A stretch of DNA of 64,000 nt, taken from Luteimonas saliphila. Lineage in GTDB: Bacteria; Pseudomonadota; Gammaproteobacteria; Xanthomonadales; Xanthomonadaceae. Positions 9,102-62,903 of the stretch are shown in pieces (the first letter of the stretch is position 1; every line of letters begins with the position of its first letter). The DNA is taken from the NCBI RefSeq assembly GCF_016774335.1, contig NZ_JAETWA010000010.1:62001-126000 (forward strand). Reading direction: 5' to 3'. The notes under the pieces are model-generated. The model saw only the letters and a program-made list of their open reading frames with translations. It made no database searches and was not told where the DNA came from. The translations under genes and the position numbers were made by a program.

Positions 9102-9142
9102 CCCGCCCGCCACGCACCGCGTGAATACGAGCCCTAGCGGCA

Positions 9143-9172
9143 TTGACACTCATTCTCATGTGTGGCGGAATA
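9143..9172 (+). promoter_or_regulatory. bfd promoter with probable Fur box
   Basis: A perfect TTGACA -35 box (9143-9148) is followed 17 bases later by a weak -10 (CGGAAT, 9166-9171). The spacer contains CTCATTCTCATGTG, which resembles half of the Fur consensus (AATGATAATCATT-like). A Fur dimer here would block the polymerase, giving iron-repressed bfd. The transcript would start near 9178, about 25 bases before the TTG start of bfd, which supports that start choice. Confidence 0.55.
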
Positions 9173-9202
9173 GGCGTCCATCCCGCGAACCGGTCGCGCG
9201 CC

Positions 9203-9418
9203 TTGTACGTCTGCATCTGCAACGGGGTCACCGAACTCGACATCCGCCGCGCGGCCGAAGCCGGCTGCGGCTCCCTGCCGGAGTTGACCATGCGCACCGG
9301 CGTCGGCGCCTGCTGCGGCACCTGCGTCGAGACCGCCAGCGCGCTGCTCGAGCAGTCGCGCCCCATTACGGCCGCTTGTGGTCTGGTGGCTTTGCCGGTC
9401 CTCTCGCGCGCGGCCTGA
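9203..9418 (+). CDS. bfd: Bacterioferritin-associated ferredoxin
   Basis: This 71-residue [2Fe-2S] protein donates electrons to bacterioferritin so that stored ferric iron can be mobilised. With a TTG start at 9203 the protein begins MYVCICNG. The four cluster cysteines then fall at positions 4, 6, 38 and 41 (VCICNG and CCGTC), exactly the E. coli Bfd numbering. TTG is therefore preferred over the more upstream ATG at 9158, which would overlap the promoter. bfr follows on the same strand. No strong ribosome binding site is visible. Confidence 0.88.
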   Translation: MYVCICNGVTELDIRRAAEAGCGSLPELTMRTGVGACCGTCVETASALLEQSRPITAACGLVALPVLSRAA

Positions 9419-10176: not shown

Positions 10177-12879
<2,703 letters not shown>

Positions 12880-12888
12880 CGGCGGGCC

Positions 12889-14724
12889 CTACAGCACCGA
12901 GCTCTGGAAGTCGAATTCGAGTTCGCCGGCCGGGCGCTGCACCAGGTTGCCCTGGATGAAGTCGACGCCCGTCATCCACAGCGTGGCCGCCGACTGCGCA
13001 TCCTCGACCTGCTGGCCGATCACCTGCAGGCCGAGTCGGTGCGCGAAGTCGATCGCGCTGCGCATCTCGTCGCGCACGGCCGGTTCGTGCAGCTGGCTGG
13101 AATAGCGCGCGGCCAGCCGCACGTAGCCCAGCGGCAGCTGGCCGAGCAGGGCGTTGGCTTCGGGTCCGAAGTGGTACTGGCTCAGGCACAGCTGCACCCC
13201 GGCCGAGACCATCGCGCTGCAGAATTCCTGCAGCGACAGCGCGTGGACCAGGGCGTCTTCCTGGCGCACGTCCACCACCAGCGACGCACCGTCCACGCCG
13301 GCCTCCGCCAGCGACTGCAGCAGCCACTGCGCGTGGCCATCGTGCGACAGGGTCGACGGCGACTGGGTCACGAACAGGCGTAGCGCGCGGTTCTCCGTCC
13401 GCTGCCGGCGCAGCGCGCCGATCGCGATCTCCAGCACGCGACGGTCGACCTCGACGGTCGCGCCGATACGCGAGGCCGCCGCCAGCACCTGGCCGGCGGC
13501 ATGCACCTCGCCGCTGGCGTCGCGCAGCCGCAGCAGGACCTGGTACTGGGCATCGTTGCCGCCGGCGACCGCGACGATCGGCTGGAACGCGACCTGCAGT
13601 TCGCCCGACGCGAGGGACTCGCGCAGGGTTCGTGCCAGCTCGGACTGGGCCTGGTCTTCGACCGATACCGGCCGCTCCCAGGCGGCGACGCCGTGGGTAT
13701 GGCCGCGGGCGGCGCGCAGCGCCTCCTCCGCGGCGGACAGGGCGGCGCCCGGATCCTCGAAGCCCAGCGCCAGCTCGGCGTAGCCGACCACCGCCCGCAG
13801 GCGCACGCGCTCCCCGCCCACGGTGAAGGGGTGTTCGCCGAGCCCGTCGCGCAGCTGTCGCGCGAAAGGCGGCAGCGCGTCGGCCGCCAGCCCGGTCGCG
13901 AGGACCAGGAAGGTGTTGTCGTTCAGGCGTGCCGCGGCATGGTCGTCCGCGACTTCCCCGAGCCGGCGCCCGGCGTCGGTGAGCAGCGTTTCCAGCGCGG
14001 CATAGCCGAAGCGGTCGCGCAGCGCGGCCGAGCCTGCGATCTCGACGAAGAACGTGGCGCCGTCGCGGGCGCCAGGCACCGTGGACGACAGCAGCTGGAG
14101 CATCTGCGGGCGGGTGTGCAGGCCGGTCGCCGGGTGCCGGTGCGCGGCGGCGGCCGGCCCCTGCAACGCGCGCGCGCGCACGATCCGGTTCTGCACCGCG
14201 GAGATCAGATGCTTGGGGCGCACCGGCTTGCGCAGGAAGTCGTCGGCTCCGAGGTCGAGCGCCTCGAAGCGGCGCTCCGGGTCCTCGTCGCCGGTGAGGA
14301 ACACCACCGGTGTGAGCGCGAAGTCGGCGTGCGCGCGGATCATTCCGGTCAGCTCCGCGCCATCCAGGCCGGGCATGTGCAGGTCCATCAGCACCAGGTC
14401 GGGGCGCAACTGTTCCATCGCGGCCATCACCTCGCTGGTGACGGACACCACCTGGGCCTGCATGCCGGCGCCGTGCAGCACGCTCTCGGCGAACAGGGCC
14501 TGGCTGGGATCGTCCTCGACGATCAGCACGCGCCAGGGCGCGGCGTCCTCGCCAGGCTGCGACGGCGACGGGCTGGTGGGCTGCACCGGCTGCGGCGCAA
14601 GCGCTTCCGCGTCCGCGGCCGGTTCCGCGCGCGGCATGACCGCCGCCGCCGCGTCCTCGCACCAGCGGCGCCAGAAACCGGTGGGCGGAAATTCCGCGCG
14701 TTGGCGATTGTCGGCGTCAGACAC
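12889..14724 (-). CDS. Response regulator with degenerate GGDEF and EAL domains
   Basis: This 611-residue protein has a short N-terminal tail, a receiver domain (WRVLIVEDDP, phospho-acceptor LVLMDLHMPG, about D114, KPV), a GGDEF-type domain and an EAL-type domain. The GGDEF signature is replaced by LNDNTF, and the EAL motif in AFQPIV...YQVLLRLRD by VLL. Neither cyclase nor phosphodiesterase activity is therefore expected. FimX-type proteins show that such domains can instead bind c-di-GMP or partner proteins; that role here is inferred. The GTG at 14724 (with AAGG upstream) is chosen because residues before it are Arg/Pro-rich and unlike protein. It is co-transcribed with the downstream hybrid kinase. 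Confidence 0.88.
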   Translation of the reverse strand: MSDADNRQRAEFPPTGFWRRWCEDAAAAVMPRAEPAADAEALAPQPVQPTSPSPSQPGEDAAPWRVLIVEDDPSQALFAESVLHGAGMQAQVVSVTSEVMAAMEQLRPDLVLMDLHMPGLDGAELTGMIRAHADFALTPVVFLTGDEDPERRFEALDLGADDFLRKPVRPKHLISAVQNRIVRARALQGPAAAAHRHPATGLHTRPQMLQLLSSTVPGARDGATFFVEIAGSAALRDRFGYAALETLLTDAGRRLGEVADDHAAARLNDNTFLVLATGLAADALPPFARQLRDGLGEHPFTVGGERVRLRAVVGYAELALGFEDPGAALSAAEEALRAARGHTHGVAAWERPVSVEDQAQSELARTLRESLASGELQVAFQPIVAVAGGNDAQYQVLLRLRDASGEVHAAGQVLAAASRIGATVEVDRRVLEIAIGALRRQRTENRALRLFVTQSPSTLSHDGHAQWLLQSLAEAGVDGASLVVDVRQEDALVHALSLQEFCSAMVSAGVQLCLSQYHFGPEANALLGQLPLGYVRLAARYSSQLHEPAVRDEMRSAIDFAHRLGLQVIGQQVEDAQSAATLWMTGVDFIQGNLVQRPAGELEFDFQSSVL

Positions 14725-14999
14725 CGCAGGAACCTTGCCGGAAAGCGGCGGCACGGGCAACCGCTCGCGCGCTCGTGGGCGCGGCGTGCCGCGCGTACGC
14801 GGCAACACACCGCCGTCGCGGCGACAACAGCCGAAAGAGCGAGGAGCCTGCCTGCGCAGCCACGCGGTCCATTCCAATCCCCCTGAGGCCGGCATTATGT
14901 CGACAATGCGGCAGTGCGACTATTGCACGGCAAATACTCCGGCGCGCGGCCAGACGGAGGAGGTCACGGGGCGGCGAGGGCGGAAGTGTGACCGTGCGC

Positions 15000-15581
15000 T
15001 CAGCCTGTGGCGGGGCGGGGCGCGCGGCGGAACAACCGGCGCCAGACCCACCACAGCACCAGCAGCAGGCCGACGCCGATCGCCACCACGAGCCCCAGGA
15101 TCGCCCAGGGATACGACCACGCCAGCCCGAGCGCGCCCACCACCACCACGTCCTCGGCGCTGGACGCGGTCCAGTTGCTGAATGGCTCGGGCGAAGTATT
15201 GAGCAACGCGCGCGATCCGGCCTTGACCGCATGGCTGGTCAGGGCCACGCCGGCGCCGGCGGCAAGCATGCCGGCGCCCAGTTCCCCGTCGGGGGAGAGC
15301 GCCGCAGCGGCCAGGAACGCGCCGGCGGGCACCCTCGCCAGGGTCTGCAGCAGGTCCCAGGCCGAATCCACGCCGGGGATCTTGTCGGCGAAGAACTCGG
15401 CAACCGCCAGCACGCCGGACACGCCCAGCACCCAGGGCGAGGTGGTCGCCTCCAGCGCCGGCGGCAGGTCCAGCCAGCCCATGGCCCCGGCCAGGCCGAC
15501 GCCGAACACGGTCAGGTAGGCGCGGATCCCCGCCAGCCATGCCAGCAGCACGCCGACGGCGAACAGGTGGGCTTCGGTCAT
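15000..15581 (-). CDS. DUF4126 membrane protein
   Basis: This 193-residue hydrophobic protein has about five transmembrane segments. Its sequence, with LLAWLAGIRAYLTVFGVGLAG, FADKIPGVDSAWDLLQT, FLAAAAL and SHAVKAGSRALLNTSPEPFS, is recognisable as DUF4126, a family of unknown function. The start ATG at 15581 is preceded by GAGGAG, a strong ribosome binding site. It is divergent from the DUF6776 gene. No functional prediction is supported. Confidence 0.85.
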   Translation of the reverse strand: MTEAHLFAVGVLLAWLAGIRAYLTVFGVGLAGAMGWLDLPPALEATTSPWVLGVSGVLAVAEFFADKIPGVDSAWDLLQTLARVPAGAFLAAAALSPDGELGAGMLAAGAGVALTSHAVKAGSRALLNTSPEPFSNWTASSAEDVVVVGALGLAWSYPWAILGLVVAIGVGLLLVLWWVWRRLFRRAPRPATG

Positions 15582-15665
15582 GGCGGCACTCCTCGCAAGC
15601 CGGACGGCGGCTGAACGTTGCGACAGGCCTCGGCCTGCGCCCCGGGAGTATAGGTGGCATCCGCC

Positions 15666-15695
15666 TTGACGCCGGCGCGGCCGCGTCGCTATACC
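15666..15695 (+). promoter_or_regulatory. Promoter of DUF6776 gene, leaderless type
   Basis: TTGACG (15666-15671) and TATACC (15690-15695) are separated by 18 bases. The -10 ends exactly 6 bases before the ATG at 15702 and there is no ribosome binding site, so transcription probably starts at or within a base of the start codon. Confidence 0.5.
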
Positions 15696-15701
15696 GGTGC
15701 G

Positions 15702-16427
15702 ATGACCGATCCCGTTTCCGCCCAGCCGGAAGACACCGGACCTGCGGCGGTCCCCGCCCCGCCCCCCGTCCGGGCGACCTACGTGGTCCTGGGCTTGTTC
15801 GTCGCGTCGTTGCTGTTCGGCCTGTGGGGCGTCTGGAGGACGGTTGCGGGCCCGGGCGGTGCGTCGGGCGCGGAACTGGCGGCCGGGCAGGCGCGGATCG
15901 AGTCGCTGGAGCAGCAGGTGGCGACACTGACCCGCTCCGACCAGATCAGTCGCGAGGCCAATCGCGACCTGCAGGGCACCCTGGCCGAGCGCGACGAGGA
16001 AATCTCCGCGTTGCGCGCCGATGTCGCGTTCTACGAGCGCTTCGTCGGCTCCACCGCGCAGCGGCGCGGGCTGGCGGTGCACGAGCTCGTCCTCACGCCA
16101 CAGGCCGGCCAGGCCTGGCATTACACCGTCACCCTCACCCAGAACCTGAACCGCGGCGCGGTGAGCTCCGGACGGCTGGTGCTGGCGGTCGAGGGCACCC
16201 GCGACGGCCAACTGGAGCAACTGGACTGGGCGGCGCTTCGCCAGCAGCCCGACGCATCGGGCGTCGAGTACTCGTTCAAGTACTTCCAGCAGGTCGAGGG
16301 CGAGATCATGCTGCCACCCGGGTTCCAGCCGCTGCGGATCAGCGTGCGGCTGGTGCCGGCATCGGGCGCGCCGGTCGAGCAGACCCTGCCGTGGAGCGAA
16401 GTCGCGCCCCGTGCCGCCGCCGGGTGA
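15702..16427 (+). CDS. DUF6776 single-pass membrane protein
   Basis: This 241-residue protein has a Pro-rich cytoplasmic N-terminus (~24 residues), one membrane segment (about 26-46, YVVLGLFVASLLFGLWGV), and a coiled coil (about 60-105). The C-terminal beta-rich domain includes YTVTLTQNLNRGAVSSGRLV and VEYSFKYFQQVEGEIMLP. This architecture and the segment FKYFQQVEGE match DUF6776, common upstream of erpA in xanthomonads. Function is unknown. The gene appears to be expressed from a leaderless promoter. Confidence 0.8.
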   Translation: MTDPVSAQPEDTGPAAVPAPPPVRATYVVLGLFVASLLFGLWGVWRTVAGPGGASGAELAAGQARIESLEQQVATLTRSDQISREANRDLQGTLAERDEEISALRADVAFYERFVGSTAQRRGLAVHELVLTPQAGQAWHYTVTLTQNLNRGAVSSGRLVLAVEGTRDGQLEQLDWAALRQQPDASGVEYSFKYFQQVEGEIMLPPGFQPLRISVRLVPASGAPVEQTLPWSEVAPRAAAG

Positions 16428-52989: not shown

Positions 52990-53670
52990 CTATTTCCAGG
53001 AGGTCAGCCGCAGGCTGACGGTTTCGCTGCCACCTTCGGCCTGGACCAGCCGCACCGGCACCGGGACACCCGCGGCGATCCAGACGCTGGTGGTCTTGCC
53101 GTTCGAAGAAGACACGACCCTGGTCGCCTGCATGGTGCGACCGTTGACGGTCACGGCCTCGATGCCGACGCGACGGAAGCGCATCGGCCTTGCCTTGCCG
53201 TTCTCGACCACCCGATAGTCCAGCGGCTTGCCCGCGGCCACGTCGCGCGCGAGCGCCAGCTGCAACAGCAGGCCGTCGACGTCTCCTGCACGGATCGCGA
53301 CCGGCCCGCGCCGGGCACGCTTGGCATCGCCGCTCCAGCTGGCCTGCATCGACTTCCAGTCGAACTTCGCCGGCACGCTCTTGCGCTGGCCAACGTAGCT
53401 GGTCCTGTCGGCGCCACCCAGCGGCATCAGCATTCCGCTGCGCGACTCGGTGAAAAACGTCGCCTGGCTCATCGACGCCGCCACGTTCTCGAGGCTCATC
53501 GCCAGCGCCCACTGGCTTCCGCGGGGCGCGAGCACCATCACGCCGCTGGCGGGAACGCCCTTGTACTTCGCCGAGTACTGCGCGGTGAACGGCTTGAGCG
53601 CGGCGTCGGCCGGTGCCGCGAATACAGCCCCGCAGACGGCGAGCAGGAGCGCGGCGAGTCGATTGCGCAT
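52990..53670 (-). CDS. DUF3108 periplasmic protein, copy 3
   Basis: This 226-residue exported protein has a signal peptide (1 to about 23) and a DUF3108 domain (KPFTAQYSAKYKGVPASG, RGPVAIRAGDVDGLLLQLAL, PLDYRVVENGKARPMRFR, TTSVWIAAGVPVPVRLVQ). The family is predicted to be beta-rich and periplasmic; its function is unknown. It is the most distal of three related genes after purN and is followed convergently by the EF-hand gene. Confidence 0.88.
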   Translation of the reverse strand: MRNRLAALLLAVCGAVFAAPADAALKPFTAQYSAKYKGVPASGVMVLAPRGSQWALAMSLENVAASMSQATFFTESRSGMLMPLGGADRTSYVGQRKSVPAKFDWKSMQASWSGDAKRARRGPVAIRAGDVDGLLLQLALARDVAAGKPLDYRVVENGKARPMRFRRVGIEAVTVNGRTMQATRVVSSSNGKTTSVWIAAGVPVPVRLVQAEGGSETVSLRLTSWK

Positions 53671-53702
53671 GGCAGGACCGTTGCAGTGATCCACGTGGGA
53701 AA

Positions 53703-54404
53703 TCAGCGCAGCGATTTGAGCTGCAGGTCGATATGGTCGCGACCATCCCGTTGCTGCAGGATGCGCGCGGGCACGGGCAGGCCGTCGACGATCCACGCGG
53801 TGATGCTGCGGTCGTCGTCCTTCCAGGTGACCTTGGTCGCCTTCCGGGTCTTGCCGGCGACCGAGATCTCTTCGGTGCCCGCCGGCCGGAACGCCTGGCG
53901 TTTGACCCGCCCGTCCTCGACCAGGCGGTAGTTCAACGGCTTGCCGGCCTTGAAATCGCGCACCAGCGCGAGGTTCATGAGCATGCCGTCGAGGTCGCCG
54001 GCCTGCAGCTTCACCGGACCGCGGCGGTCGGGTTTGACGTCCCCGTCCCAGGTGGCCTGGCCGCTGTCCCAGTCGTAGGTGGCGTTGACCGAGCGCTTCT
54101 TGACCAGCATCGCCGCGAGTCCCGATTCGCCGCCTTGCGAGTCGTTCCCGGACAGCGGGCGCCACTGGCCGCCGTCTGCCTCGAACACGGTGCTCTGCGC
54201 CAGGCGCGCGCCGGCGCCGGTGACTTCGAGGCTGTATTTCCAGCGGTTGCCGCCCTCGGGTGCCAAGGTCATGCGGCCGTTGGCCTGCATGCCCATGTAG
54301 TGGGCGCCGTAATCGGCGGTAAACGGCTCGACCGCAGCCAGCGGCGCACTGGCGAGTGCGAACACGGCGGCGATCGCGGCGCTGCGGAAAGGGGATCGGA
54401 ACAT
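53703..54404 (-). CDS. DUF3108 periplasmic protein, copy 2
   Basis: This 233-residue exported protein is a paralogue of its neighbours. It has a signal peptide (1 to about 24) and EPFTADYGAHYMGMQANGRM, KPDRRGPVKLQAGDLDGML, PLNYRLVEDGRVKRQAFR and ITAWIVDGLPVPARILQQ. The ATG at 54404, after a GAGGA site, is preferred over an ATG at 54425 that overlaps the preceding stop codon (ATGA) and would extend the peptide by seven residues. Confidence 0.87.
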   Translation of the reverse strand: MFRSPFRSAAIAAVFALASAPLAAVEPFTADYGAHYMGMQANGRMTLAPEGGNRWKYSLEVTGAGARLAQSTVFEADGGQWRPLSGNDSQGGESGLAAMLVKKRSVNATYDWDSGQATWDGDVKPDRRGPVKLQAGDLDGMLMNLALVRDFKAGKPLNYRLVEDGRVKRQAFRPAGTEEISVAGKTRKATKVTWKDDDRSITAWIVDGLPVPARILQQRDGRDHIDLQLKSLR

Positions 54405-54421
54405 CGGCAGGGTCCTCGTTG

Positions 54422-55216
54422 TCATTGCACGGCCTGGTATTCGACCAGGCGCAGGTCGACGGCGTCCTCGCCGTCCTCGCGTTGCAGGATGCGCACCGGC
54501 GTCGGCACGCCGTCGGCGATCCAGAAGATCGTCTCGTCGTTGCCGCCATTGGTGCGCTCCACCCGCAGCGCCTCGTAGTTCAGCTCGGCCACGGTCACCG
54601 GTTCGGTCTGCGCCGCGACCTGGTAGGCATAATCGCGCACCCGGCCGCCGTCGACGAAACGATATTGCAGGCGTCTGCCCGGCTGCGCATCGCGGATCAC
54701 CGCCAGGTTGATCAGCAGCCCGCTCATGTCGCCGTAGCGGATCGGCACCGGCGCGCGCCGGTCCTTGGCGAGGTCGCCCGTCCACTGCGCATTGTTCGCG
54801 TGCCAGTCGTAGGTGCCGGTGACCTTGCGGTTGAAGAACAGCGCCGCCTTGCGCACGGTGCTCTGCGACAGCGGCCGGTAGATGCCGTTGGCCTCGTCGA
54901 ACACGGTGCTCTGCTCCAGGTTCAGGCCGGCGATCCCGGCCAGCCCGCGGTCGCCGCGGATGCCCAGGTCGATGCGCCAGCGCGACGCCGCGTCGTCGCG
55001 GACCACCTGCATGGTCGCGTTGCCGGCGGGCTTGCCGCCGTACCACGCCTCGTACGTGGCGACGAAAGGCTGCAGGACCGCGGCGCGAGGGGCAGCGGCC
55101 GTTGCGGACGCATCCGCGGCCTGCGGCGCCAGCGCGCGCGCAGGCACGGCAACGCCCGCGGCCACGACGGCCAGGGCGGCGATGCATGCGGAGAGCAGGG
55201 AAGGGGTCGGGCGCAT
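54422..55216 (-). CDS. DUF3108 periplasmic protein, copy 1
   Basis: This 264-residue exported protein carries a signal peptide and an extra Ala-rich linker (about 30-48) before the DUF3108 domain (QPFVATYEAWYGGKPAGNAT, RRAPVPIRYGDMSGLLINLA, RLQYRFVDGGRVRDYAYQ, TIFWIADGVPTPVRILQR). Its ATG at 55216 is 10 bases after the purN stop codon. It is probably expressed with purM-purN, as a DUF3108 gene often follows purMN in proteobacteria. Confidence 0.88.
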   Translation of the reverse strand: MRPTPSLLSACIAALAVVAAGVAVPARALAPQAADASATAAAPRAAVLQPFVATYEAWYGGKPAGNATMQVVRDDAASRWRIDLGIRGDRGLAGIAGLNLEQSTVFDEANGIYRPLSQSTVRKAALFFNRKVTGTYDWHANNAQWTGDLAKDRRAPVPIRYGDMSGLLINLAVIRDAQPGRRLQYRFVDGGRVRDYAYQVAAQTEPVTVAELNYEALRVERTNGGNDETIFWIADGVPTPVRILQREDGEDAVDLRLVEYQAVQ

Positions 55217-55226
55217 AGGCCGGACA

Positions 55227-55988
55227 TCATGCAAAGGCGTCGTTGCACGACAGCTGAAGCGCAGCGGTCAGCGCGTGTGCATCCACGTGAACGCCGTCTT
55301 CATCCAGCGTCACGCGCGCCGCGGCGAACAGGCGCAGGCTCGCGACCAGCAGCGGATGCTCGCGGGCCAGCACCCGGGCGGCAAGGCTCGCTTCGCTGTC
55401 GCAGGGTTCGACCGGGACGCGGACCTGCGCGATCAACGGGCCGCCATCGAGGTCCGGAGTGACGAAATGCACGCTCGCACCGTGTTCACGGACGCCCGCC
55501 CGCAGCGCCTGGCGATGCGTGTGCAGGCCCTTGAACGCCGGCAGCAGGGACGGGTGGATGTTGATGATGCGCCCGGCGCGCGGCGCGAGCGCGGTCGCGT
55601 CGATCAGGCGCATGTAGCCGGCGCAGACGATCAGGTCCGGCGCCACCGCATCGATCCGGGCGAACAGCGCCTGGTCGAACGCGGCGCGCGAAGGGAAGTC
55701 CCTGGGCGACAGCGCTTCGGCGTGCACCCCGGCCGCGCGTGCGCGTTGCAGCGCTTGCGCCTCGGCCCGGTCGGAGAACACGCCGACGACGATCGCGTGC
55801 AGCGTGCCCGCCGCGATCGCGTCGAGGATCGCCTGCAGGTTGCTGCCGCGGCCCGAAACGAGGACGGCGAGGCGGTAGGGTCGGCACCCCGCTCCCGGGG
55901 CCGGGAGATCGCTGGATTCACGGGCGCCGGTACCGCGCGGGCGCACGGGCGCATCGCACGTCCCCGTTCCCGATTTCCGCTTCCCCAT
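55227..55988 (-). CDS. purN: Phosphoribosylglycinamide formyltransferase
   Basis: PurN formylates GAR using 10-formyl-tetrahydrofolate. The enzyme core shows LAVLVSGRGSNLQAIL, DLIVCAGYMRLI, the catalytic NIHPSLLPAFKG and TPDLDGGPLIAQ. The ATG at 55988, with a GGG-rich ribosome binding site, gives 253 residues, about 37 more than the family norm. The extra N-terminus (MGKRKSGTGTCD...) appears to be translated from a G-rich intergenic repeat. No start codon lies near the conserved beginning, so the extension may be real. Confidence 0.92.
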   Translation of the reverse strand: MGKRKSGTGTCDAPVRPRGTGARESSDLPAPGAGCRPYRLAVLVSGRGSNLQAILDAIAAGTLHAIVVGVFSDRAEAQALQRARAAGVHAEALSPRDFPSRAAFDQALFARIDAVAPDLIVCAGYMRLIDATALAPRAGRIINIHPSLLPAFKGLHTHRQALRAGVREHGASVHFVTPDLDGGPLIAQVRVPVEPCDSEASLAARVLAREHPLLVASLRLFAAARVTLDEDGVHVDAHALTAALQLSCNDAFA

Positions 55989-59511: not shown

Positions 59512-60222
59512 ATGCCGACCTCCTCGCCGCAACTGCCGCTGGCGTTGCGCTACCCACCCGACCAGCGCCTGGACACCTTCGCCGGCGATCCGGCGCTGGC
59601 GGCGCAACTGCGGGCGTTCGCGACCGGCGCCGGCGGCGACCGCGCACTGCTGCTGGTGGGGCCGGCGGGCACCGGCAAGAGCCACCTCGCGCTGGCCGCG
59701 TGCGCCGAGGCAGACGCGGCCGGGCATCGGGTCGGCTACCTGCCCCTGGCCAGCATGGCGGGACGGCTGCGCGAGGCGCTGGAGGCGATGCACGCCTTCG
59801 ACCTGGTGGCGCTCGACGGCGTGGAGGCGGTGGCAGGCGAACATGCGGACGAGCTGGCGTTGTTCGACTTCCACAACCGCATGCACGACGCCGGGCGCCG
59901 GCTGCTGTACACCGCCCGCGCCACGCCCGACGCGCTGCCGCTGCTGCTTCCGGACCTGCGCTCGCGGCTGTCGCAGTGCACGCGGCTGGTGCTCGAGCGG
60001 CTCGACGACGCCGGCCGCGGCGAGGTGCTGCGCCTGCGCGCGCGGCGTCGGGGGCTGCAGATCGACGATGCGGCGATCGACTGGCTGCTGCGTCGCGCAG
60101 GGCGCGACCTCTCGGGCCTGGCCGCAATGCTCGACCGCCTCGACGCGGCCTCGCTCGCCGCGCAGCGGCGCATCACCGTGCCGTTCCTGCGCGAGGTGCT
60201 GGGGACGCACGTGTCGCGGTGA
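59512..60222 (+). CDS. hda: DnaA regulatory inactivator Hda
   Basis: This 236-residue AAA+ protein is related to DnaA domain III and, with the sliding clamp, promotes hydrolysis of DnaA-bound ATP. The N-terminal QLPLAL (7-12) fits the clamp-binding motif. The Walker A is GPAGTGKS (50-57), and the sensor region includes TARATPDALPLLLPDLRSRL. The start ATG follows the permease stop codon by five bases. Confidence 0.92.
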   Translation: MPTSSPQLPLALRYPPDQRLDTFAGDPALAAQLRAFATGAGGDRALLLVGPAGTGKSHLALAACAEADAAGHRVGYLPLASMAGRLREALEAMHAFDLVALDGVEAVAGEHADELALFDFHNRMHDAGRRLLYTARATPDALPLLLPDLRSRLSQCTRLVLERLDDAGRGEVLRLRARRRGLQIDDAAIDWLLRRAGRDLSGLAAMLDRLDAASLAAQRRITVPFLREVLGTHVSR

Positions 60223-60283
60223 AGGCCCCGTTGTCGCGGAGCGATGGCCGTGTGGCGCGGCCCTCGGGATGACAGCGGAAAGG

Positions 60284-62050
60284 CTATGCCGCGCGCGGTG
60301 TGCCCGCGCGCCGCTTCAGGCGGATCACCAGGTTGTCCGGGCGCATGGTGAACACCAGCTTCTCCTCGACCGGGCCGCTGCCGGCGCGTTCGAGCTCGAA
60401 GTTGCGGCACAGCATCGAGATCACGCCCTTGATCTCCAGCAGCGCGAGGAAGCGGCCCGGGCAGAAGCGCGGACCGGCGCCGAACGGGAAGAACGCCTTC
60501 GCCGACGTGGCGTCGAGCGTGGAACCGTCGGCCTTGATCCAGCGCTCGATGTCGAAGGCTGCGGCCCCGGTCGCGGCCTGCGCGCGGATCGTGGCATGGC
60601 GGGTGAGCAGGAACACCGGTGTGCGCGCCGGCACCTCGACGTCGCCGAGCACGGTGTCGTGCAGCGCCTCCAGGCGCAGTACCGGCGCGGCCGGCTTGAG
60701 CCGCATCGCCTCGAGCGCGGCGGCCTCGATCCGCACCATGCGCGGGTGGGTGGCGAAGTCCTGCAACAGTTCGTCGTCGCCGAGCAGGGCGTCGGATTCC
60801 GTGCGCAGCGTGTCGCGCAGGTCGGGACGCCCGCACATGAAGTGGATCAGCCAGGCCAACGCGCGCGCGGTGGTTTCCTCGCCGGCCAGCATCAGCGTCA
60901 TCACGTTGCCGGTGACGTCCTCGTCGCTGAAGCCGCCGCCGTCGGACTGCGCCACCAGCGCCTCGATGTAGTTGCCCGGGCGCGCGGCGAGCCCGGGGTC
61001 CTCGGCAAGGCGGCGCCGCGCGTCGGTGATCAGCCGCCCGAGCGTGTCGTGGATGCCGACCAGGGCGCGGTCAAGCGCGCGGTCCGCCGGCAGCTTCACG
61101 TAGTTCCAGTAAGGCACCAGCGCGGTCACGCGCCGCGACAGGGCCTTCGGGATCTCGCCGATCTGCTGTTCCAGCGCGCCTTCGTGGCCTTCGATGGTGT
61201 TGAGGTCCTGGCCGAATGCGAAGGTCGAGGTGACGTCGATGGTGAAGCGGGTGAGGTCGTCGAGCAGATCGATCTCGCGACCCTCGTCGGCGGCCTGTTC
61301 CCAGCGCCGCTGCAGCCGCCCGACGATGCGCATCATGGTCGGGAAGAAGTGCTTGAGGTGGCCGTGGGTCAGCGCCTGCACCACCACCTTGCGCTGCCGC
61401 CGCCACTCGTCGCCCTCGGCGGTGAACACGCCGGCGGCCTTGAGCCCGCGGGCGATGCCCTCCACGGTGCTCATGCGCCGGAAGGTGTCGGGCCGGCGCT
61501 TGAACGCGTCCTCGACCAGGGCCGGGTCGGCCACCATCAGGATCCGGTAGGCGCCGAGCCGGATCCGGTACATCGAGCCGTATTCGTCGGCCCAGTCCTC
61601 CATCACCAGGTGCTGGTCGGTCTCGCGCAGCTGGAACAGGTTGCCCACCAGCGGCAGGCCCTGCGGGCCCGGCAGCGAGTCGAACCGGCGCGTGGGCGTC
61701 GCACTGCCGGTTGCCTGCGCGCGGAAGGCCTGCAATTCGCCCGCATCGATCGCGATATCGTCGTCGACCACGTGGGTGGTGAAGCGGTGCAGGCAGGCGC
61801 GCGAACCGGCGTCGCGGCGGCCGCTGGCGCAGTCGAAGCGCCAGCCGTGGCCCGGGCAGACCAGGTGTCCGTCGACCACCTCGCCGTCGGCGAGCAGGCT
61901 GCCCTGGTGCGGGCACAGGCCATGGAACACGGACACCTGCCCGCGATGGCGCACCACCACCAGCGGCGTGCCGTCCACGCTCGCGGCCACCGGAACATCC
62001 TCGACCAGCGCAGGCGCGCGGGCGACCAGAAGCAATGACGAGGTCGTCAT
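60284..62050 (-). CDS. Rieske [2Fe-2S] ferredoxin-cytochrome P450 fusion
   Basis: This 588-residue soluble protein joins two redox modules. Residues 1-110 are a Rieske-type ferredoxin with the cluster ligands C46 and H48 (LCPHQGSLL) and C65 and H68 (CPGHGWRFD). From about residue 126 (LPGPQGLPLVGN) a complete P450 follows: I-helix AGEETT (389-394), K-helix E447-A-M-R450, and the haem loop FPFGAGPRFCPG with C530. All catalytic and ligand residues are intact. The ATG at 62050 has a GGAG ribosome binding site. The Rieske domain probably delivers electrons to the haem, replacing a separate ferredoxin; its reductase and substrate are unknown. The P450 part resembles fatty-acid or steroid-type enzymes only in general form. 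Confidence 0.92.
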   Translation of the reverse strand: MTTSSLLLVARAPALVEDVPVAASVDGTPLVVVRHRGQVSVFHGLCPHQGSLLADGEVVDGHLVCPGHGWRFDCASGRRDAGSRACLHRFTTHVVDDDIAIDAGELQAFRAQATGSATPTRRFDSLPGPQGLPLVGNLFQLRETDQHLVMEDWADEYGSMYRIRLGAYRILMVADPALVEDAFKRRPDTFRRMSTVEGIARGLKAAGVFTAEGDEWRRQRKVVVQALTHGHLKHFFPTMMRIVGRLQRRWEQAADEGREIDLLDDLTRFTIDVTSTFAFGQDLNTIEGHEGALEQQIGEIPKALSRRVTALVPYWNYVKLPADRALDRALVGIHDTLGRLITDARRRLAEDPGLAARPGNYIEALVAQSDGGGFSDEDVTGNVMTLMLAGEETTARALAWLIHFMCGRPDLRDTLRTESDALLGDDELLQDFATHPRMVRIEAAALEAMRLKPAAPVLRLEALHDTVLGDVEVPARTPVFLLTRHATIRAQAATGAAAFDIERWIKADGSTLDATSAKAFFPFGAGPRFCPGRFLALLEIKGVISMLCRNFELERAGSGPVEEKLVFTMRPDNLVIRLKRRAGTPRAA

Positions 62051-62180
62051 CCAGTTCTCCAGCAGCCGGTCCCGGGGGGACGGGACGCAGTGGGCGTCCC
62101 GCGCGACCGAATTGATCTCGACAGTCGGGCCGGGGGACCCGCGGGGCTGGGATCGCGCCGGAATGCGCGCGGTCCGGGAC

Positions 62181-62903
62181 CTATCTTGCGCCGTGGAGCG
62201 GACCCGCGTCGAGCGCGCGGTCCAGTTCTTCCAGCCGCTGCGGCGTGCCGACGTCGGTCCAGGCGCCGGCGTGGCGCTCGCCGGTGACCGCGTCGCGCCG
62301 CATCGCCGCGCGCAGCAGCGGGGCGAGACGGAAGCGTGGCGGCGTCTCGTCCGCGCCGGACGCATCGCCGATCACCGCGCGCCAGTCGCGGAACAGGCCC
62401 GGGCGGTAGACGCCGATGCCGGAGAAGGTCAGCTTCGGTTCGCCTTCGTCCAGCACGCGGCCGTCGGGCTGCAGCATGAAGTCGCCCGGCGGGTGGTGCG
62501 CGGGATTGTCGACCAGCACCAGGTGCGCGTCGCCGTCGGGTTCGCGCGGCAGGCGGACGAAGTCGTAGTCGGTCCAGATGTCGCCGTTGACGGCGATGAA
62601 GGGATCGTCGCCGAGCAGTTCCCGCGCATGCCACATGCCGCCGCCGGTCTCCAGCGGCACCTCGCCTTCGTGCGAGTAGCTGATGCGCAGGCCGAAGGCA
62701 CGGCCGACACCGAGCGTAGCCGGGAACTGTTCGGCCAGCCACGAGGTGTTGATCACCACTTCCTGCACGCCGATCGCGGCCAGCCGCTCCAGGTGCCAGG
62801 CGATCAGCGGCCTGCCGCCGGCATACAGCAACGGTTTTGGCGTGGCGTCGGTCAGCGGCCGCATGCGCTCGCCGAGGCCGGCGGCGAAGATCAGGGCCTT
62901 CAT
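62181..62903 (-). CDS. murU: N-acetylmuramate 1-phosphate uridylyltransferase MurU
   Basis: This 240-residue nucleotidyltransferase makes UDP-MurNAc from MurNAc-1-phosphate. The signature AAGLGERMRPLTDATPKPLL, the metal-binding NGDIWTDYDF and FSGIGVYRPGLF are visible. It follows amgK by 10 bases. The pair forms the peptidoglycan-recycling bypass of MurA/MurB known from Pseudomonas, which gives intrinsic fosfomycin tolerance. Confidence 0.93.
   Translation of the reverse strand: MKALIFAAGLGERMRPLTDATPKPLLYAGGRPLIAWHLERLAAIGVQEVVINTSWLAEQFPATLGVGRAFGLRISYSHEGEVPLETGGGMWHARELLGDDPFIAVNGDIWTDYDFVRLPREPDGDAHLVLVDNPAHHPPGDFMLQPDGRVLDEGEPKLTFSGIGVYRPGLFRDWRAVIGDASGADETPPRFRLAPLLRAAMRRDAVTGERHAGAWTDVGTPQRLEELDRALDAGPLHGAR

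Follow-up and report, generated by a model that had tools for sequence, protein, structure and literature searches.

Can a Rieske ferredoxin and a cytochrome P450 form a single natural enzyme, and if so, how would its heme receive electrons? A gene at positions 60284–62050 (minus strand) of a 64,000-nucleotide stretch of the Luteimonas saliphila genome (hereafter, the window) raises this question. Translation of the window gives one uninterrupted frame of 588 residues, with 0 internal stops, from an ATG at 62048–62050 to a stop codon at 60284–60286. A GGAG at 62057–62060, spotted by eye six bases upstream of the ATG, is likely the ribosome-binding site. We prefer this start to an upstream ATG at 62365 because the longer frame overlaps murU and Pfam finds no family in its extra residues at E ≤ 0.001. 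A plus-strand reading of the same interval was also rejected as a gene. Scanning positions 60000–62400 returned 0 promoters and 0 terminators. Third-position GC stays at 0.88–1.0 in all 18 overlapping 60-codon steps of the gene, thus giving no hint of a frameshift where the Rieske and P450 parts join. Both GC content (0.711) and third-position GC (0.935) are similar to those of murU and amgK, so the gene bears no mark of recent arrival. The initial annotation had described a Rieske domain fused in frame to a P450, and we find both domains complete within the single frame. The residues it named (C46, H48, C65, H68, AGEETT at 389, E447-x-x-R450, and C530) are all where it placed them.

The N-terminal half has the motif and fold of a soluble Rieske ferredoxin. 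The domain spans residues 1–102 (61745–62050, minus strand), as supported by Pfam, phmmer, and an AF2 model. Its Pfam Rieske match covers residues 9–78 (E 5e-15; 56 bits vs a cut-off of 20.3). The cluster ligands lie in C46-P-H48 (61907–61915, minus strand) and C65-P-G-H68 (61847–61858, minus strand). All four ligands are invariant in the 7 rows of alignment A1 and, together with W70, F72, and G77, in the 12 rows of alignment A3, whose rows from outside the genus are 39–44% identical to the window protein. The same seven residues are present in a Persicobacter row at 28% identity. By sequence, the best solved relative of this half is T4moC (phmmer E 1.9e-9). The AF2 model of residues 1–115 (pLDDT 94.1) has as its top structural matches the naphthalene-dioxygenase, Sphingomonas, toluene-4-monooxygenase, carbazole-dioxygenase, and biphenyl-dioxygenase ferredoxins. 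Rieske-oxygenase domains and a nitrite-reductase small subunit also match, with slightly weaker E-values, so the fold by itself does not prove a ferredoxin role. Thirteen plasmid records carry relatives of the Rieske half, and five of the seven examined sit in toluene-monooxygenase-type operons. A plasmid of Sphingomonas parapaucimobilis (L103:2441-3952) encodes another single chain, in which a Rieske domain is fused to an FAD-dependent oxidoreductase (Pyr_redox_2).

The C-terminal half is a cytochrome P450. Residues 127–571 (60338–61672, minus strand) match Pfam p450 (PF00067) with an E-value of 3.2e-72 (244 bits vs a cut-off of 22.8). The characteristic elements of the superfamily are present on the minus strand: the I-helix oxygen-activation motif AGEETT with its acid-Thr pair (residues 389–394; 60869–60886), the K-helix ExxR (E447–R450; 60701–60712), and the heme-binding loop FGAGPRFCPG (60455–60484), whose thiolate ligand, C530, is the same in all 12 rows of A3. 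Among solved structures, the closest by sequence are CYP97 (E 1.6e-38) and then CYP102-type enzymes. The whole-chain model (pLDDT 83.8, pTM 0.83) matches CYP97C1 with a TM-score of 0.89 by target length. No PDB structure spans both domains among the best 50 of 1,724 matches (E ≤ 0.001), which cover at most 481 columns and targets of 439–466 residues. No NCBIfam family matches the protein above its cut-off, the best being the albaflavenone monooxygenase model at 148 bits vs a cut-off of 700.

Pfam finds Rieske and p450 alone in the protein at E ≤ 0.001. It is thus not a Rieske non-heme iron oxygenase, as only p450 follows the Rieske domain. The fused flavin reductase domain of self-sufficient P450s (classes VII and VIII) is likewise absent, and the fusion should therefore not be self-sufficient. 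An N-terminal Rieske carrier without a flavin domain agrees with the distinct electron-transfer layout that the initial annotation had proposed.

Among genus orthologues, substitution patterns indicate purifying selection on both halves. Comparing the window protein with four orthologues gives dN/dS values of 0.10–0.18 for the P450 half and 0.11–0.52 for the Rieske half. In three of the four comparisons the Rieske value is about 0.5, so the Rieske half may be less constrained than the P450 half. The two are joined by residues 103–125 (61676–61744, minus strand), a segment with a predicted helix at 103–113 followed by a low-confidence loop. Its length differs between fusions, with the longest inserts at the methylotroph loci L026 and L027, and its dN/dS of 0.11–0.70 indicates weak constraint in three of the four comparisons. 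These properties do not bear out the earlier suggestion of a short linker that implies tight domain packing. Nor does the pTM of the model prove docking, because the P450 half makes up most of the chain. In the CYP51-ferredoxin fusion of Methylococcus capsulatus, the available text of PMC9519919 describes a ferredoxin that adopts various orientations and makes transient contacts. By analogy, the variable segment seen here fits such transient contacts, against tight packing.

Within Luteimonas, a few species carry the fusion, at a single chromosomal site. Six of 52 genomes match the protein at E ≤ 1e-30, five of them at full length with 85–100% identity (the window's own included). The match in one of these, G025, continues through the TAG that ends its 585-codon frame. 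In the sixth, G019, the match is limited to residues 492–588, and a longer stretch of this genome retains only residues 473–583. This decayed remnant (L067; G019:C17:66001-84000, positions 9106–9414), roughly the final fifth of the protein, lies near hda and ~2.35 kb past murU. The remaining 46 genomes have no match at E ≤ 1e-30. The initial annotation had considered that close relatives might instead carry two separate genes; the genus gives no support for this, as the other 47 genomes comprise one with the C-terminal remnant and 46 without a match.

The insertion site is marked by murU (62181–62903, minus strand; NCBIfam NF045761, 285 bits vs a cut-off of 250) on one side and the convergent hda (59512–60222, plus strand; Pfam Hda_lid, 82 bits, over cut-off) on the other. 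We matched murU in 51 of the 52 genomes and examined its flank in 30 of these 51. The fusion adjoins murU in all five full-length genomes, and hda comes next in four; in G025, no hda lies within the flank examined. Among the other 25 flanks, 14 contain hda; the gap between the aligned murU and hda segments, calculated by hand, is 28–207 bases in 13 of these and 510 in one. The other 11, G019 included, show no hda within the stretch examined. The five fusion genomes are also those with the five highest murU identities to the window (83–100%). Most simply, one Luteimonas lineage would have gained the gene at a single site, with later decay in G019; alternatively, the other Luteimonas genomes may have lost it. 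Elsewhere in the window (52990–55234, minus strand), consecutive genes for similar secreted-like proteins apparently form a tandem family, two of them being DUF3108 by Pfam (54425–55234 and 53706–54458) and a third, downstream, similar by eye.

Beyond the genus, the fusion is rare and patchy. Our screens of evenly drawn samples scored only the top three or four candidates in each genome and therefore give lower bounds. At E ≤ 1e-60, the family sample (297 genomes) contains two with the fusion, both Luteimonas and one of them the window's own. The class sample (369 genomes) and the phylum sample (398 genomes) contain one each, in both cases the window's own. Two other genomes in the class sample and three in the phylum sample match the P450 half alone. 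At E ≤ 1e-80, 5 of 329 genomes from the phylum of Labilithrix carry the fusion, Labilithrix included, with one of the five (G1382) running off its contig end; six others match only the P450. Two Rieske-motif patterns, run against contigs from 84,980 species, yield 15 relatives. Eleven of them match both halves: a genus MAG (LUTEI1, counted once with G041), an Anaerolineae MAG, Cupriavidus numazuensis, Methylobacterium sp. R2-1, Kofleriaceae, Labilithrix, Nannocystaceae, two Myxococcales, Methylopila jiangsuensis, and Methylosinus. The other four match within residues 19–128 only. On plasmids, 148 records match, and the 12 examined include two fusions, in Methylorubrum extorquens AM1 (megaplasmid) and Persicobacter sp. 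JZB09; the other ten are stand-alone P450s, seven by frame and three, haloarchaeal, by annotation.

In total, 19 genomes carry the fusion, one of them truncated. The same architecture recurs at 28–44% identity in methylotrophic Alphaproteobacteria, Cupriavidus, Myxococcota, an Anaerolineae MAG, and Persicobacter. The initial annotation was thus right to call the layout uncommon, and its spread covers Pseudomonadota, Myxococcota, Chloroflexota, and Bacteroidota. An archaeal fusion was considered and rejected: the haloarchaeal plasmid matches extend into the Rieske half of the query, and the three examined are annotated as stand-alone P450s. A viral scan found 0 relatives among 114 candidate stretches. 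Phage origin was rejected as well, the two phage records both being Mycobacterium phage Adler and matching the P450 half alone at 23.7%. The initial annotation had also named a frameshift or assembly error as a possible source of the fusion. We give such an artefact practically no weight, because the full-length fusion occurs in five Luteimonas genomes and in many distant ones. The fusion is therefore real, and it is conserved.

Separate P450s of the same subfamily also exist. They are 33–44% identical to the P450 half, and most of their frames have 467–541 codons. A narrow motif search around 19 of them found no other Rieske frame in flanks of ~0.7–1.5 kb (12 P450s) or ~7 kb (7 P450s), a scope that Rieske genes farther away or with other motif spacing would escape. 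In the P450 tree, fusions fall into four groups scattered among the stand-alone P450s: Luteimonas; Myxococcota; methylotrophs with Cupriavidus and Anaerolineae; and Persicobacter. This arrangement needs at least three changes of state. A single fusion clade is rejected with 18 fusion and 19 stand-alone rows (p-AU 0.0006). It is not rejected once five rows, namely both from Persicobacter and three stand-alone P450s on long branches, are removed (17 vs 15 rows, p-AU 0.074). In the Rieske tree, which has many long branches, one fusion clade is not rejected either (18 vs 11 rows, p-AU 0.385). The trees exclude the truncated L096 and the duplicates L092–L094. The Persicobacter fusion pairs with a stand-alone Persicobacter P450 (100/99), and this pairing apparently drives the rejection. 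More than one gain or loss thus rests mainly on the Persicobacter pair, as neither the reduced P450 tree nor the Rieske tree rejects one clade. Either repeated fusion or repeated loss may have occurred within the P450 subfamily, since the trees do not separate gain from loss.

Taken as a whole, the fusion is probably a Rieske ferredoxin-P450 monooxygenase that is not self-sufficient. The N-terminal domain, of the toluene-4-monooxygenase/aromatic-dioxygenase ferredoxin type, would carry a [2Fe-2S] cluster held by two Cys and two His. Electrons would reach this cluster singly from a separate flavoprotein that uses NAD(P)H and is probably FNR-type, and the tethered cluster would pass them to the P450 heme through transient docking. 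The reduced heme would then activate O2 and hydroxylate a lipophilic molecule, for example an intermediate of polyketide, acyl, or terpenoid type. The step from Rieske cluster to P450 has an experimental precedent in separate proteins: the Rieske-type SpFdx4, with SpFdR3, is reported in the available text of PMC12979805 as the natural redox partner of the P450 DoxA. Counting against this account are the 19 stand-alone rows of the subfamily, which work without a fused Rieske domain.

Which reductase would serve the fusion? The initial annotation saw no reductase gene nearby, and matches to the two families searched, Reductase_C and FAD_binding_6, indeed lie on contigs C33, C36, C43, and C44, while the window lies on C8. 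At the loci inspected, mostly by eye, no reductase gene stands beside the fusion. FAD_binding_6 (FNR-type, PF00970) has 2–3 matches in each of the nine fusion or remnant genomes searched, including all five full-length genomes of the genus. FNR-type reductases are also common in controls (8 of 14 genomes), so their presence is weak evidence and indicates what is available, not what is used. The window genome has three FNR-type matches. We compared two with NCBIfam, where both fall below cut-off; the first is nearest to ferredoxin-NADP reductase (E 6.5e-41) and the second to BenC (E 1.5e-28).

We consider it unlikely that the Rieske domain, while still the electron partner, is fed instead by a reductase of the PdR/BphA4 type (Reductase_C), the arrangement of biphenyl dioxygenase. 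BphA4 is among the known donors of Rieske ferredoxins (PMC12979805 and PMC10992505, in their available text), and strong Reductase_C matches occur in Cupriavidus and Methylobacterium sp. R2-1. In the window genome itself, the one Reductase_C gene lies on C33, where a second P450 and a Fer2 ferredoxin are close by. However, only one of the five full-length-fusion genomes of the genus has a match, and the Kofleriaceae, Labilithrix, and Methylopila genomes have none, although MAGs may be incomplete. Methylosinus and one Myxococcales MAG have weak matches (E 1e-6 to 1e-7, over cut-off). Overall, Reductase_C matches 7 of 52 genus genomes (6 over cut-off). Outside the genus, it matches four of the eight fusion genomes or records searched, strongly in two and weakly in two (for AM1, the search covered the megaplasmid). 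Near the window genome's second P450, Fer2 ferredoxin, and sole Reductase_C match, we also observe coenzyme F420 genes (L066; G000:C33:22001-40000, positions 11546–16423), which by Pfam encode CofD, F420 ligase, F420_oxidored, and a CofH-type radical SAM protein. F420 synthesis seems unusual in Xanthomonadaceae.

It is equally improbable that the Rieske domain is a structural or redox-sensing regulatory remnant, with the P450 fed by a separate ferredoxin or flavodoxin. The higher Rieske dN/dS in three of four pairs would suit such a remnant, as would the existence of stand-alone P450 relatives. Yet the value is still below 1, the seven residues that include the four ligands are invariant in A3 and kept in Persicobacter, and fusions make up four groups in the P450 tree. 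Still less likely, and in our judgment very improbable, is that the gene yields two products, the full-length fusion and a free P450 released by an internal start or by cleavage within residues 103–125. The weak constraint and low-confidence loop of this segment would allow it, and most stand-alone relatives are about the size of the P450 half. We retain the non-self-sufficient monooxygenase served by a separate reductase as our preferred account.

Neighboring genes give some clues to the substrate. At the four methylotroph loci (L016, L021, L026, and L027, from AM1, R2-1, Methylopila, and Methylosinus), collinear genes for a ketosynthase (KS), an acyltransferase (AT), an AMP ligase, a thioesterase, and a DUF3047 protein are followed by the fusion in every case, with the AM1 ketosynthase cut by the edge of the stretch. 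We compared eight further fusion loci, some of them short stretches, and none of these five genes appears there. The methylotroph ketosynthase has a RhiE-like linker, a feature consistent with a trans-AT-like synthase. Toblerols come from methylobacteria, M. extorquens AM1 being the producer, and the methylotroph genes may or may not belong to the toblerol cluster. In Persicobacter, an Aminotran_1_2 gene, by eye an alpha-oxoamine synthase, and a short-chain dehydrogenase lie upstream of the fusion. The window locus has no neighbor that points to a substrate. A lipophilic biosynthetic substrate is our best guess for the P450.

Among the papers listed in searches of the open-access literature, we found no description of a natural Rieske-P450 fusion, which does not by itself prove priority. 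The sources seen in part treat separate Rieske and P450 proteins or are reviews of the field (PMC12105684, PMC10992505, PMC12445004, and PMC13304987). A P450 review distinguishes ten classes of electron supply, and the word "Rieske" is absent from its main text (PMC11173547). As P450s are sorted by electron supply, a Rieske-P450 chain occurring in nature would extend this scheme by one layout and offer a compact module for P450 engineering. It would also make Rieske-driven P450 catalysis in cis directly testable, soon after the work on DoxA and its separate Rieske ferredoxin (PMC12979805, in part). A bolder reading, which we find conceivable and somewhat short of probable, is that these fusions are an undescribed redox class of at least four phyla. 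A tethered Rieske cluster fed by a housekeeping FNR-type reductase would replace the usual ferredoxin, the Rieske module would have been gained or lost more than once in one subfamily, and the methylotroph enzyme would perform an oxidation in a trans-AT-like polyketide pathway.

Several known systems share parts of this layout. T4moC and the ferredoxins of aromatic dioxygenases have the same domain fold, 2Cys-2His motif, and length as the Rieske half. They are separate small proteins serving di-iron or Rieske oxygenases, not P450s, whereas the Rieske domain here is covalently joined to a P450. DoxA with SpFdx4 and SpFdR3 from Streptomyces peucetius is alike in having a Rieske-type donor to a P450; there, the three are separate proteins (PMC12979805, available text). 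CYP102 (P450 BM3) and CYP116B also have fused redox partners, and the P450 half is nearest to CYP97 and CYP102. In these enzymes, however, reductase domains follow the P450 (PMC11173547, as seen in part), while the fusion has Rieske and p450 alone.

The closest parallel in organization is the class V CYP51-ferredoxin of Methylococcus capsulatus, in which a P450 and an iron-sulfur carrier share one chain (PMC11173547 and PMC9519919, as seen in part). Like the fusion, it would appear to have no fused flavin domain and to need a separate reductase. In CYP51-ferredoxin, the carrier is C-terminal and is compared with the adrenodoxin/putidaredoxin type in the available text of PMC9519919; here, it is N-terminal and Rieske-type. 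Furthermore, no search named the P450 of the fusion as a CYP51, and no CYP51 model is among its NCBIfam matches, all of which fall below cut-off. Thus, the fusion resembles class V in joining a P450 and a ferredoxin in one chain without a reductase domain, and it works like a class V P450-ferredoxin, yet it is not a member of that class, as its carrier type and domain order differ.
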